Origin: Desulfuromonas sp. SDB
Lineage (GTDB): Bacteria > SDB-A
Assembly: GCA_001412365.1 (NCBI GenBank)
Contig: LKUE01000426.1
Coordinates: forward strand, 1 to 13,366
Direction: 5' to 3'
DNA: 13,366 nt
Positions 1 to 13,366 of the stretch are shown here, one piece after another (positions within the stretch are counted from its first letter, which is position 1; every line of letters starts with the position of its first letter). The notes beneath the pieces are model-generated. The model was not told the origin of the DNA. It saw only the letters and a list, made by a program, of their open reading frames with translations, and did not search any database. Made by a program: the position numbers and the translations under genes.

Positions 1-168
1 TGAATTTATTCAATCATTTCTGGTTATGAATCCTCCAGGTGAGATTTCGGTGTTTATCTGTGGTTATAATCAGGGCGAGGAGGGCGGCACCCTGTGAATC
101 CTGTCAATAATCTGGAGTGGTGGGTGGGCATCTTGTTGATCCTGTTCTTTCCTTATGGTGAGGAGTAA
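1..168. other. non-coding left edge, no gene recognised
   Basis: I see no convincing coding region or RNA gene here. It lies downstream of the tRNA gene on the minus strand. A GC-richer patch at 71-94 has short inverted arms (CAGGG at 71-75 and CCCTG at 90-94) but no following T-run, so it is at best a weak terminator. Fragments of the type AATCCTG or GATCCTG recur several times, at about 28, 97 and 138, and resemble a decayed simple repeat. Confidence 0.3.
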
Positions 169-242
169 TGGGCGAAACAGGATTCGAACCTGTGACCTCC
201 TGCGTGTAAGGCAGGCGCTCTAACCAGCTGAGCTATCCGCCC
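169..242 (-). tRNA. tRNA-Val, anticodon UAC
   Basis: Read on the minus strand, this folds into a complete cloverleaf. A seven-pair acceptor stem runs GGGCGGA with TTCGCCC and has one G-U pair. The D-arm is AGCTCAGCTGGTTAGAGC, the anticodon stem is CCTGC/GCAGG with loop CTTACAC, and the T-arm is ACAGG-TTCGAAT-CCTGT. The discriminator base is A at 169. The anticodon TAC (positions 206-208) reads GUA and related Val codons. CCA is not encoded; the next bases are TTA. The gene sits 62 bp downstream of the valyl-tRNA synthetase gene on the same strand, so the enzyme and its substrate RNA are neighbours. Confidence 0.97.
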
Positions 243-254
243 CTGGGATATTGA

Positions 255-282
255 AATATATCAAATTGTCGGTCAAAGTCAA
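255..282 (-). promoter_or_regulatory. putative sigma70 promoter of tRNA-Val
   Basis: On the minus strand, TTGACT (277-282) is followed after 16 bp by TATATT (255-260). The tRNA 5' end is at 242, about 12 bases past the -10 box, which suits a short leader. A second TTGACC lies at 271-276. This suggests the tRNA can be transcribed on its own as well as by readthrough from valS. Confidence 0.55.
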
Positions 283-304
283 ATATAATATTATCATCGT
301 ACAG

Positions 305-2785
305 CTAGATAAATTCCAAACTGTAAGATTGATCATCTCCTGAGTTGACCTTTTCTAAATCCAGAATATGGGTGGTAGCCAGAAAATCTTCCTGAATATT
401 TTCAAATAATTTTAAATTATCAGAACCGGTCTTTAAAACTGCCTTGGTGATTTCCGCTTTCTGGGATAAGCCCTGTGATCCCCTGAACTCCCTCAACTGA
501 GCTAGAAGCTCAAAAAACATATTCCCCTGACTTTCCAGATTATCACTAAATTCAACGTCTACCAGCTGGGGCCACTTACTCAGATGAATGCTTTTCACCC
601 CTTCTTGTGTGAAAAGTTGATCGTAAATTTCTTCAGTTATATAGGGAAGGAAGGGGGCTAATAATCCAATAATAGTCCTTCCGGCGGTGTACAAAGCAAA
701 TAAAGCAGATTTCCTGGCTTTATCTCCTCTTTGTTCGACATTGTACAACCGGTCCTTCACTATTTCCAGATAGTTGTCACAGAATTCCTTCCAGAAAAAT
801 TCAATTACTGTGTTCCGGGCTAACCGGAAATCGTAATGGTCAAAATAATCAGTGCAAGCGCTGATCACCTGGTTCAATCTATAAATTATAAAATTATCCA
901 TAACTTCCGATAAATCTGATAGTTCTGGTGTATAACCTTCTAGGTGCATGGAAATAAATCTAAATGAATTCCATATTTTGGTCACCACTTTCTTGCCTAC
1001 TTCAATTTCTTCAATTCCCTTGAACTGCATATCGTATCCAGGGGAAGCATTGGCCGACCAGTATCGCAGAATATCTGCACTGTATTTTTCCAATAATTTT
1101 AAGGGAGAGGCAATATCTCCATGTTTAGACTTGGATATTTTCTCCGCCTTAAATGTTTTCTTTCCCCCTTTGATGTTAACTTTACCCGGATCTTGGGAAG
1201 GTATGGTTACAAAACCTGAAATCACCACATTTTCCCAGGGTATTGAATCATGATGGAGATGGCTCTTCAAGATAGTGTAAAAGGTCCAGGTTCTTATAAT
1301 TTCATGAGCTTGAGGTCTCAACTGCATGGGGAATAGATAATCTTTTTGATCCTTTTCTCCCCATCTGAAATTTAAATCCGGGGTTAAACTAGAGGTCGCC
1401 CAGGTATCCAGTATATCTGTCTCCGGAGTAAAATCAGTTCCCTGGCAGTGGGGGCACCTTTGATCCGGGGGCTTGTCAATTATGGGATCAATGGGCAGAT
1501 GTTCATCCTCAGGTAGTATAAATTTTCCGCAAGCATTGCAGTGCCACACCGGAATGGGTACTCCGTAAAATCTCTGGCGGGATAAACACCAGTCCCAGGC
1601 TAGATTTCTAACCCAGTCAATATACCTCTTTTTCATAAAATCAGGATACCAGTTGATTTCATCTGCCCTGGCGATTAATTCATCTTTGAGGTCCATTACC
1701 TTTAAAAACCACTGTTTTTTAGACAGGAATTCAACCGGAGTGCCGCATCTTTCATGGGTATTGACCTGATGAGATATATCTTCACTCTTTTTCACCAAAC
1801 CCATTTCATCAGCTTTTGCCAAAATTTCCTTCCTGGCTTTTTCCACAATCAGTCCTTCAAATCCTCTAGCCAGGTCATTCATTCTACCTCTTTCATCTAT
1901 GGATATTTTTAAGGGCAGCTCATGCTTCTGCCACCATTCAATATCCTGACGGTCGCCAAAAGTACAGCACATTACCACTCCGGTACCCTTTTCCTTATCT
2001 ACAGCAGGATCAGTTATCAGAGGAACTTCTTGACCGAACACGGGAACTTTTAAGGTTAAACCCGCTGATTTATTTATCAAATGTTCATAGCGATTGTCCT
2101 CAGGATGAATAAATACAGCCACACAGGAAGCTAATAGTTCCGGTCGGGTTGTGGCAATAACCAATGGATCCCGGTTAGGCAGTTCGAATATCAGATCATT
2201 AAATTTACTGTTGAACATTTTTTCTTCAATCTCCGCCTGGGCAATTGCAGTTTGACATTTAGGACACCACATCACCGGAGCTTGTTGATAGTAAATTCTT
2301 TGCTGTTTAAGCAGATGGATAAATGAACGTTGAGAAATTCTCCTGCTGCTCTCCTGTATCGTGGTGTAAACCTCATCCCAATCTACACTTAGAGCAATAA
2401 TCTCCCAAAGGTTCTGATACATCTGTTCATATTTCTTGCAGGTTTGATAACATTTTTCCACAAATTCATTACGGGGAAGATCAGTGGCTTTAATTTTTAA
2501 ATCTTTTTCGGTTAAAATTTCTGAAGGCAGTCCATTATCATCAAACCCCATGGGATAGTAAACATTAAAACCCTTCATTCTGAAATAGCGTACCTGGATG
2601 TCGGTATGAGTGTAGCTGAATATATGTCCGATATGCAGGCTGCCCGAAACAGTGGGAGGAGGTGTATCTACCGAATATATCTTTCCCGGTTTCCGGGGAT
2701 CAAATTTAAAAATCTTATTATCTATCCAATACTGTTTCCATTTTGACTCAATGGATTTACTGTCGTATTTTTTTTCTAAAGCCAT
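305..2785 (-). CDS. valS: valyl-tRNA synthetase, type 2
   Basis: Cytoplasmic class I aminoacyl-tRNA synthetase of 826 residues that charges tRNA-Val with valine using ATP. Visible are the HIGH signature (residues 51-54, in PPPTVSGSLHIGH) and the KMSKS-type loop KISKS (549-553). The CP1 editing domain spans about 200-345, with ATTRPELL at 211-218 and GTGVVMCCTFGD at 267-278. Zinc-type cysteine pairs occur at C174/C177, C416/C419 and C444/C447. The wording PMGFDDNGLPSE after HIGH is the pattern of the archaeal, actinobacterial and rickettsial type 2 enzymes, not the bacterial VGTDHAG type. The protein seems to lack the long C-terminal coiled-coil arm of many bacterial ValRS. ATG at 2785 is preceded by GCGAGGAA at good spacing. 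The stop is TAG. There is no room upstream for a T-box leader. Confidence 0.97.
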   Translation of the reverse strand: MALEKKYDSKSIESKWKQYWIDNKIFKFDPRKPGKIYSVDTPPPTVSGSLHIGHIFSYTHTDIQVRYFRMKGFNVYYPMGFDDNGLPSEILTEKDLKIKATDLPRNEFVEKCYQTCKKYEQMYQNLWEIIALSVDWDEVYTTIQESSRRISQRSFIHLLKQQRIYYQQAPVMWCPKCQTAIAQAEIEEKMFNSKFNDLIFELPNRDPLVIATTRPELLASCVAVFIHPEDNRYEHLINKSAGLTLKVPVFGQEVPLITDPAVDKEKGTGVVMCCTFGDRQDIEWWQKHELPLKISIDERGRMNDLARGFEGLIVEKARKEILAKADEMGLVKKSEDISHQVNTHERCGTPVEFLSKKQWFLKVMDLKDELIARADEINWYPDFMKKRYIDWVRNLAWDWCLSRQRFYGVPIPVWHCNACGKFILPEDEHLPIDPIIDKPPDQRCPHCQGTDFTPETDILDTWATSSLTPDLNFRWGEKDQKDYLFPMQLRPQAHEIIRTWTFYTILKSHLHHDSIPWENVVISGFVTIPSQDPGKVNIKGGKKTFKAEKISKSKHGDIASPLKLLEKYSADILRYWSANASPGYDMQFKGIEEIEVGKKVVTKIWNSFRFISMHLEGYTPELSDLSEVMDNFIIYRLNQVISACTDYFDHYDFRLARNTVIEFFWKEFCDNYLEIVKDRLYNVEQRGDKARKSALFALYTAGRTIIGLLAPFLPYITEEIYDQLFTQEGVKSIHLSKWPQLVDVEFSDNLESQGNMFFELLAQLREFRGSQGLSQKAEITKAVLKTGSDNLKLFENIQEDFLATTHILDLEKVNSGDDQSYSLEFI

Positions 2786-10110: not shown

Positions 10111-10169
10111 TTATAAAACTCCTTAATGTAATTAAATTAATCCTGATTAATTTAACCTATTATTTATAC

Positions 10170-10185
10170 ATGGCAATATAGCCAA
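10170..10185. promoter_or_regulatory. putative ArsR-family operator, left copy
   Basis: ATGGCAATATAGCCAA contains its own dyad (TGGC and GCCA around AATATA). Read in reverse, the right copy at 10230-10245 matches it at 14 of 16 positions. It covers the -10 box of the minus-strand operon promoter, the position expected for repression by the divergent ArsR protein. Confidence 0.65.
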
Positions 10186-10203
10186 ATAACAATATTCAGT
10201 CAA
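10175..10203 (-). promoter_or_regulatory. sigma70-type promoter of the redox/permease operon
   Basis: On the minus strand, TTGACT (10198-10203), exactly 17 bp, then TATATT (10175-10180). The expected start of transcription is near 10168, giving a leader of about 58 bases before the thioredoxin lipoprotein ATG. The -10 lies inside the left operator copy. Confidence 0.7.
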
Positions 10204-10211
10204 GTATTAAT

Positions 10212-10240
10212 TTGACTTATCTGAATAAATTGGCTATATA
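10212..10240 (+). promoter_or_regulatory. sigma70-type promoter of the arsR-like gene
   Basis: TTGACT (10212-10217), exactly 17 bp, then TATATA (10235-10240). It is the mirror image of the minus-strand promoter, and their -35 boxes are only 8 bp apart. Transcription would start near 10247, leaving a leader of about 11 bases that consists largely of the ribosome site AAAGGA. Confidence 0.7.
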
Positions 10241-10245
10241 ACCAT
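10230..10245. promoter_or_regulatory. putative ArsR-family operator, right copy
   Basis: TTGGCTATATAACCAT is the inverted counterpart of the left copy, with the shared core ATATAGCCAA when read on the minus strand. It covers the -10 of the regulator's own promoter, implying autoregulation. The centres of the two copies are 60 bp apart. Confidence 0.65.
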
Positions 10246-10257
10246 AAAGGAATATTT

Positions 10258-11629: not shown

Positions 11630-13027
11630 ATTTCAGAAAAAGATAATAAAACTAAATATGAGTATGGAGTCAATGAGATTCCTCCCCCCCGCCACCTGAT
11701 TTTACTTTCAATTCAACATGTACTGCTGATGTTTATGTCCCTGGGATTGCCCATTATCTTCGCCAGTCAAATTAACGCTTCCACCAAAACCACCCTGGCT
11801 ATAATTTCATTTTCCATGCTGGCTGCAGGAATAGGTTCAATATTGCAATCACTCAGATTGCGGTACATTGGCTCAGGATATTTATGTCCAAATTTATGCG
11901 GTCCTTCTTATTTCAGTTTATCTCTTTCCGCCGCCTGGGTGGGGGGAATACCTCTAATGAGGGGGATGATAATAATTGCCGGATTAGTCGAGATGATTCT
12001 GGCTCCTATTGTACAGAAATTGAAGAAAGTCTTCCCCCCTTATATTGTTGGACTAGTGGTGGCGATGGTAGGGGTAAGTGTAATTAAATCATCGGTATCT
12101 TCTCTGTTCGGCTTGAACTTTCATGGAGATGCAGTGGGAGGGGTAGAAATCGCTGTTGGCTTCTTCTCCTTGTCAGTTATGGTTTTATGCAATGTATGGG
12201 GTAAAGGACTAATTAGAATGTACTGCCTGCTAATCGGCATGATTGCAGGTTGGGTGGCTGCGGCAATTTTCATCCCTGAATACCGGTTTAATATGAGTGT
12301 TTTTCAAAACACTCCTTTTATTGCCGTGCCCACTATGCCCTGGGGAGTAAAAAATATTAGCTTTCAATGGAATCTGATAATACCATTTGTAGTTATCGCC
12401 GTAAGCGGATCTTTAAAATCATTTGGCAACCTTCTCGCTGCCCAGAAAATTTCAGAGCCAGGTTTAAAAAAGGTAAAGTATCTCCCCATCAGAAACGGTC
12501 TCATTGCAGATGGCTTTTCCACCGCTCTTGCCGGTTTCTTTGGAGCAATGGCAGTAGACACCTCCTCCAGCAATGTAGGATTAGCCGGTTCCACTAAAGT
12601 TTTCAGCAGATGGATTGCCACCTGTGCAGGGATAATGTTCTGTTTATTTGCATTTCTGCCGAAATTCACCGCAGTAATTTCTAAAATGCCTCCACCGGTA
12701 CTGGGGGCATCAATAATTTTTGCAGGTTGTTTCATGATCATAACCGGTTTAAAGGAAATGTTCAGCTACGGGTGGGATCAACGCAGAACTTTTGTTACCG
12801 GGATATCTTTATTTATGGGTCTTAGTACCGCTTTTCTTCCTGAACTTTACGCCCGGTCACCTCATTTGATTCAATCCTTTTTCACCGATCCTCTGCCCAC
12901 TACCACCATCATGGCGGTGTTGATTAACCAGATTATAAATCTGGATTTGCTGTTTAATAAAAATGCAGATAAAAATGATGTTACGGTAAAAGAAGATGAT
13001 ATTGAGGGTAAAACAGAAAATTCTTAA
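11630..13027 (+). CDS. NCS2 (nucleobase:cation symporter-2/SLC23) family permease, divergent
   Basis: A membrane transporter of about 465 residues with 12-14 hydrophobic segments. The first ATG in frame is at 11729, but the frame is open back to 11621. The missed part carries the family N-terminus YEYGVNEIPPPRH and the TM1 motif SIQHVLLMF, so 11729 is too short. No ATG, GTG or TTG exists in that stretch. ATT at 11630, four bases after GAGGT, is my tentative start; a one-base indel after ATG 11617 is the alternative. Numbered from 11630, the TM8 region GSLKSFGNLLA has K263 where family members carry a substrate-binding E. The TM10 motif is SSNVGLAGSTK (S314 N315 V316 G317) in place of Q/E/P-N-x-G-x4-T-R/K. 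The substrate may therefore not be uracil or xanthine. It is coupled to the Cache protein gene just upstream. Confidence 0.85.
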   Translation: MSEKDNKTKYEYGVNEIPPPRHLILLSIQHVLLMFMSLGLPIIFASQINASTKTTLAIISFSMLAAGIGSILQSLRLRYIGSGYLCPNLCGPSYFSLSLSAAWVGGIPLMRGMIIIAGLVEMILAPIVQKLKKVFPPYIVGLVVAMVGVSVIKSSVSSLFGLNFHGDAVGGVEIAVGFFSLSVMVLCNVWGKGLIRMYCLLIGMIAGWVAAAIFIPEYRFNMSVFQNTPFIAVPTMPWGVKNISFQWNLIIPFVVIAVSGSLKSFGNLLAAQKISEPGLKKVKYLPIRNGLIADGFSTALAGFFGAMAVDTSSSNVGLAGSTKVFSRWIATCAGIMFCLFAFLPKFTAVISKMPPPVLGASIIFAGCFMIITGLKEMFSYGWDQRRTFVTGISLFMGLSTAFLPELYARSPHLIQSFFTDPLPTTTIMAVLINQIINLDLLFNKNADKNDVTVKEDDIEGKTENS

Positions 13028-13050
13028 ATTTTCTTTTATCAAAGAATGAT

Positions 13051-13366
13051 CTAAGTAAACTTAGTTCACTTAGCCCACTCATCTGCGTAGCAGATGAAAC
13101 CTTCGGTTTACTCTCCGTTTTTTCTAAAAACAAATCGCTCTAACTGAGGGTAAGAGTGGGATGAACTGAACTAAGTAAACTTAGTTCACTTAGCCCACTC
13201 ATCTGCGTAGCAGATGAAACCTTCGGTTTACTCTCCGTTTTTTCTAAAAACAAATCGCTCTAACTGAGGGTAAGAGTGGGATGAACTGAACTAAGTAAAC
13301 TTAGTTCACTTAGCCCACTCATCTGCGTAGCAGATGAAACCTTCGGTTTACTCTCCGTTTTTTCTA
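13051..13366. repeat. 120-bp perfect tandem repeat, at least 2.6 copies
   Basis: Unit 1 is 13051-13170, unit 2 is 13171-13290, and unit 3 starts at 13291 and is cut by the window end after 76 bases. All copies are identical wherever they can be compared. The unit begins CTAAGTAAACTTAG. It has no frame open throughout on either strand, so it is not a protein repeat. Almost the whole unit can fold into short hairpins: 13080-13096, 13097-13109, 13117-13131, 13138-13156, and one spanning the junction between units. It starts 23 bp after the permease stop. The window may end here because an assembler could not cross the array. Confidence 0.95.
13154..13200. repeat. large hairpin across the tandem-unit junction
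   Basis: Outer arms GAGTGGG (13154-13160) and CCCACTC (13194-13200) enclose a perfect inner stem GAACTAAG/CTTAGTTC (13168-13175 and 13180-13187) with a TAAA loop. The hairpin can form only where two units abut. The first unit's left edge lacks the outer left arm. Confidence 0.7.

Follow-up and report, generated by a model that had tools for sequence, protein, structure and literature searches.

We characterized a tandem array of hairpin-rich 120-nt units at the end of a contig from an uncultured bacterium, at a locus with a permease gene on one side and, most likely, a serine tRNA gene on the other. Judged from the sequence, the array most likely fills the gap from the permease gene (plus strand) to a convergent tRNA-Ser(GGA) gene (minus strand), beside ssrA. 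We favor, at slightly better than even odds (about 0.55), the reading that it is a tRNA-distal tandem repeat with an RtT-like layout, grown from the tRNA-Ser 3′ end and trailer, that would act as a two-way terminator/processing substrate. The original prediction had left three readings side by side, namely a structured RNA array, a protein-binding or recombination substrate, and a mobile repeat amplified in tandem. The first of these fits best, with the addition that the array very probably adjoins the tRNA-Ser gene at its 3′ end and holds relics of that end.

The window, that is, the whole stretch of DNA analyzed (13,366 nt), is all of contig C426 in an assembly of 3.14 Mb and 433 contigs. 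Comparison of the window sequence with itself revealed an exact period of 120 from position 13051 to the contig end at 13366, corresponding to 2.63 copies, a lower bound given that the contig end truncates the array. This agrees with the perfect 120-bp array of identical copies that had been predicted. TRF reported 2.7 copies (99%) starting at 13047; the single mismatch to the period, T versus A at 13050, falls outside the interval of the original prediction. The array consists of a tRNA-distal copy that shares 116 nt and meets unique DNA at 13050 (13051–13166), a complete 120-nt unit (13167–13286) and a partial unit of 80 nt at the contig end (13287–13366). Since the copies are identical, we infer recent amplification or homogenization of the array.

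The complete unit begins with the hairpin TGAACTAAG-TAAA-CTTAGTTCA (13167–13188, unit positions 1–22). It continues with CATCTGC-GTA-GCAGATG (13200–13216, unit positions 34–50; also at 13080–13096 and 13320–13336), AAACC-TTC-GGTTT (13217–13229, unit positions 51–63; also at 13097–13109 and 13337–13349), GTTTTT-TCT-AAAAAC (13237–13251, unit positions 71–85; also at 13117–13131) and the imperfect hairpin CTCTAAC-TGAGG-GTAAGAG (13258–13276, unit positions 92–110; also at 13138–13156). A further stem, which pairs CCCACTC (13194–13200, unit positions 28–34) with GAGTGGG (13274–13280, unit positions 108–114), closes a three-way junction that spans 13194–13280. The hairpins named at the outset are all present, at the unit positions just listed, but counting the listed arms leaves 24 of the 120 bases outside hairpins rather than the approximately 13 that had been claimed. 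Because some arms share bases (one C is common to CCCACTC and CATCTGC, and GAG is common to GAGTGGG and GTAAGAG), the named hairpins cannot form all together. The minimum-energy fold of the unit as plus-strand RNA comprises the 22-nt hairpin followed by the three-way junction closed by CCCACTC/GAGTGGG. As RNA, the unit is structured beyond chance on both strands, with z scores of −5.2 (plus) and −3.9 (minus); as minus-strand DNA the z score was −4.45, and in each of the three cases none of 200 shuffles folded as well.

The array was also compared with known structured elements. Rfam returned no family above chance and neither a tRNA nor RtT at E ≤ 10, and ARAGORN returned no tRNA match, on which grounds an array of tRNAs or pseudo-tRNAs was rejected. 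Integron attC core sites (RYYYAAC/GTTRRRY) were absent from the unit as read, the nearest candidates, CTCTAAC and GTTAGAG, violating the consensus. Genome-wide, an enrichment of GNA triloops was not seen. An excess of CATCTGC...GCAGATG matches in the genome seemed, on reading, to reflect coding or chance contexts, and a match to AAACCTTCGGTTT on contig C318 lies in an apparent coding stretch.

On the inner side, the array is preceded by a gene for a xanthine/uracil-type permease (PF00860; 11729–13027, plus strand), whose stop at 13027 lies 23 nt before it. On the outer side, contig C187 opens with CTTCGGTTTACTCTCCGGTTTTTCTA, a 26-nt stretch that matches the end of the window at all positions but one (25/26), flush at both ends. 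C187 carries tRNA-Ser(GGA) at 37–129 (minus strand) and ssrA at 213–562 (plus strand). The overlap with the window end was unique to C187 among 271 sampled contig ends, some of them masked. Eleven further contig-end pairs overlap by 14–38 bases with at most one mismatch (183 unmasked ends), among them C381 with the start of the window (29/29), and such short flush overlaps are the way in which this assembly was cut at contig ends. Since the window end overlaps the start of C187 in the same flush manner, the array most likely lies between the permease and tRNA-Ser genes. The join is a 25/26 overlap within a repeat, and further copies may sit in it. The terminal 26 nt (13341–13366, minus strand), which recur at 13101–13126 and 13221–13246, represent the immediate 3′ flank of tRNA-Ser(GGA), reading into C187. 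The permease gene is absent from the relatives G001–G003 and its homologs elsewhere belong to various other groups, so that synteny is not traceable from the permease side. The tRNA-Ser gene of the relative G001 has no such repeat behind it, and thus no conservation or selection is shown.

Some further features of the window and of tRNA-Ser loci were observed. An inverted repeat with 25-nt arms (76%) at 10161–10254, between an ArsR-type regulator gene and a divergent thioredoxin gene, is a likely operator region. Each tRNA-Ser gene found (GGA; GCT with TGA; CGA) has its 3′ end within 35–149 nt of a contig end, on C187, C365 and C381, and in the relative G003 one contig begins inside tRNA-Ser(GGA).

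Read on the minus strand, in the direction of the tRNA, the unit holds the T-arm and acceptor strand in a gapped copy, next a spacer, and after that the tRNA's immediate 3′ flank. The degenerate copy of the tRNA-Ser(GGA) 3′ end (GTTC--ATCCCACTCT versus GTTCGAATCCCACTCT) lies at 13273–13286, and a second copy of this relic at 13153–13166, both on the minus strand. Alignment of the minus-strand unit with the tRNA-Ser 3′ end and flank yielded 45 identical columns, of which the flank part is the array's edge and not independent evidence, and the tRNA part is independent. The tRNA tail scored 23 points against the unit (p = 4e-4 from shuffled units; p = 1e-3 against 150-nt genome windows), and the collinear remainder after the C187 overlap gave p = 2e-4, or 0.012 with the position left free. 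All other tRNAs in the sampled genome (approximately 0.92 Mb unmasked for sequence-level comparisons) scored 15 or less, and the G001 counterpart of tRNA-Ser(GGA) scored 20. By itself, the relic, 14 nt long with a 2-nt gap and a significance of 4e-4 to 1e-3, is moderate sequence evidence; combined with its position, it makes a persuasive case for a copy of tRNA-Ser.

A serious rival is a neutral repeat: a local palindromic minisatellite, selfish or neutral, that would have expanded by hairpin slippage in a convergent intergenic gap, with a chance likeness to tRNA and without function. The identity of the copies fits recent slippage, the array is not conserved in G001–G003 and the tRNA relic is just 14 nt long, all of which a neutral repeat would accommodate. 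Against a chance likeness speak the specificity of the tRNA-tail match for the adjacent tRNA (p = 4e-4) and its collinear placement (p = 2e-4), and we consider this rival possible but doubtful.

The preferred reading, a tandem repeat grown from the tRNA 3′ end, has a counterpart in the RtT/rttR element of E. coli (RF00391), whose RNA has been described as freed from tRNA operon transcripts (PMC4986893). As a control, the tyrT/tyrV operon of E. coli K-12 showed a 178-bp repeat in 3.14 copies behind tRNA-Tyr and four Rfam RtT matches; within the operon, the final 19 nt of the tRNA occur six times without a mismatch. Like RtT, our array is a tandem repeat of about three copies directly downstream of a tRNA gene, as placed by the inferred C426–C187 join (25/26 overlap), and every unit carries the 3′ end of the adjoining tRNA, here as a degenerate 14-nt copy (p = 4e-4) rather than an exact 19-nt one. 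The two also differ in the length of the unit (120 nt versus 178 bp), in the tRNA (tRNA-Ser versus tRNA-Tyr) and in folding, the E. coli unit being not specially folded (z −0.5, compared with −5.2 and −3.9 here). Complementarity to the tRNA, as in RtT, was not significant in our unit (p = 0.15; E. coli, 0.0035). The covariance model RF00391 matched nothing in the genome itself or in G001–G003, the E. coli control being the only positive, and a true RtT was rejected for want of both a sequence and a covariance match. By analogy, the array has the layout of RtT and perhaps its mode of action, without being an RtT itself.

Searches for further copies bear on whether the unit could have come from elsewhere. 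BLAST of the unit against its own genome found the array, 34 bases at the start of C187, and otherwise short chance matches (E ≤ 10). In 97 other genomes, three from the same family and the rest sharing the domain only, nothing exceeded chance, the only match being 23 nt in G021. Phage and plasmid collections gave only chance matches (E 0.8) and scans for exact patterns in viral and genome contigs gave none; a phage, plasmid or viral origin was rejected, as these collections hold no copy of the unit. The search of the genome and its relatives proposed along with the original prediction thus ended at the array and the C187 start. With no match elsewhere in its own genome, the unit is not a dispersed element, and the idea of a mobile repeat amplified in tandem found no support, although the genome does contain other, unrelated hairpin families.

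Several of these families were observed. Four perfect hairpins and a long imperfect hairpin, bracketed by AAATCTCACC...GGTGAGATTT, extend from L108 (C381; 18640–18849) into window positions 1–70, between a glycogen-phosphorylase-like gene and tRNA-Val. Relatives of this row, most of them located at contig ends, occur at C143, C236, C401, C270 and C30 and make it a dispersed palindromic family. Double-hairpin repeats with GCAGTAC-N4-GTACTGC arms occur at L099 (1–39 and 5568–5607), L122 (5974–6011), C143, C159 and C270; genome-wide, the pattern matches exactly at six sites and with one mismatch at three, and a control pattern has none. An intergenic palindrome, ACCTGCC...GGCAGGT, possibly a REP family, was found at L196 (8309–8369), L173 (4253–4339), L182 (3046 and 4268), L087 (3057) and L192 (14892). 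Directly behind tRNA-Ser(GCT) on C365 stand three end-to-end hairpins (L106, 12870–12925), the first of which uses the last bases of the tRNA; L106 joins L193 through a 38-nt overlap, and this row shows no tandem repeat. These clusters resemble the array in style, not in sequence.

That the array arose by tandem amplification from one of the dispersed hairpin mosaics of this genome (REP/BIME- or MITE-like) is a disfavored and unlikely reading: BLAST finds no module common to the unit and the C381 or GCAGTAC...GTACTGC families, and at E ≤ 10 the genome holds no other copy of the unit besides the C187 join and short chance matches. The existence of such clusters and of one Y1/REP-type transposase gene (C25:28087–28416) would speak for it. 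With REP/BIME elements the array has in common that it is made of short palindromes, lying between genes at their 3′ ends, and that its genome encodes a Y1 transposase, but the unit is present at one locus only. It likewise recalls the intergenic hairpin-forming repeats of sponge mitochondria (PMC2800124), which, however, have been described as invading mitochondrial genomes repeatedly, whereas here we find one local bacterial tandem array.

The 3′ ends of tRNA genes commonly serve as attB sites, and copies of the tRNA-Ser 3′ end could be the remnant of an integrative element or satellite that used the tRNA in this way. Such a remnant would fit a 16-nt identity between the plus strand of the unit and the tRNA end with its T-run on the opposite strand, but this exact match is inverted, the direct copy being gapped. 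A 120-bp unit also leaves no space for an element, and no integrase or phage gene was recognized among the ten window genes (Pfam) or the C187 ORFs as read, making this origin improbable. An assembly artifact, in which a graph loop multiplied one real copy, might be suspected of an array at a contig end in a genome of 433 contigs; we judge it very improbable, because the unit–unit junction is distinct from the junction with the unique flank (TGAT versus TGAA at 13047–13050) and occurs twice, so that reads must have joined unit to unit. A protein-binding or recombination substrate is conceivable, but nothing points toward it.

If the array is indeed a repeat grown from tRNA-Ser, it would have arisen by tandem duplication of the tRNA 3′ end plus trailer, and the unit is probably a pre-tRNA trailer. 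RNA polymerase leaving tRNA-Ser, or arriving from the permease gene on the opposite side, would transcribe into the array, where the stable hairpins and three-way junctions could bring about two-way termination and form a 3′-end barrier. The same hairpins and junctions might be processing substrates in tRNA maturation, releasing short structured trailer RNAs. These functions in termination, processing and the supply of trailer RNAs are proposed by analogy, and the released trailer RNAs may also have a regulatory role. A bolder version, which taken as a whole we regard as a long shot, is that a tRNA-Ser precursor with an amplified, strongly folded trailer array would yield several identical, junction-shaped small RNAs per tRNA, and that regulatory RNAs of the RtT type, linked to a tRNA, would thus have originated independently in an uncultured lineage distant from E. 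coli.

To our knowledge, E. coli tyrT is the main known case of tandem repeats built from the 3′ end of the tRNA itself, and there they seemed a curiosity. Meeting them again in a distant lineage, differing in sequence and more strongly structured, would suggest that arrays of this kind are seeded repeatedly by tRNA 3′ ends, be it through repair, through slippage or because trailer RNAs are selected for; the role of pre-tRNA trailers would then be open to comparative testing.
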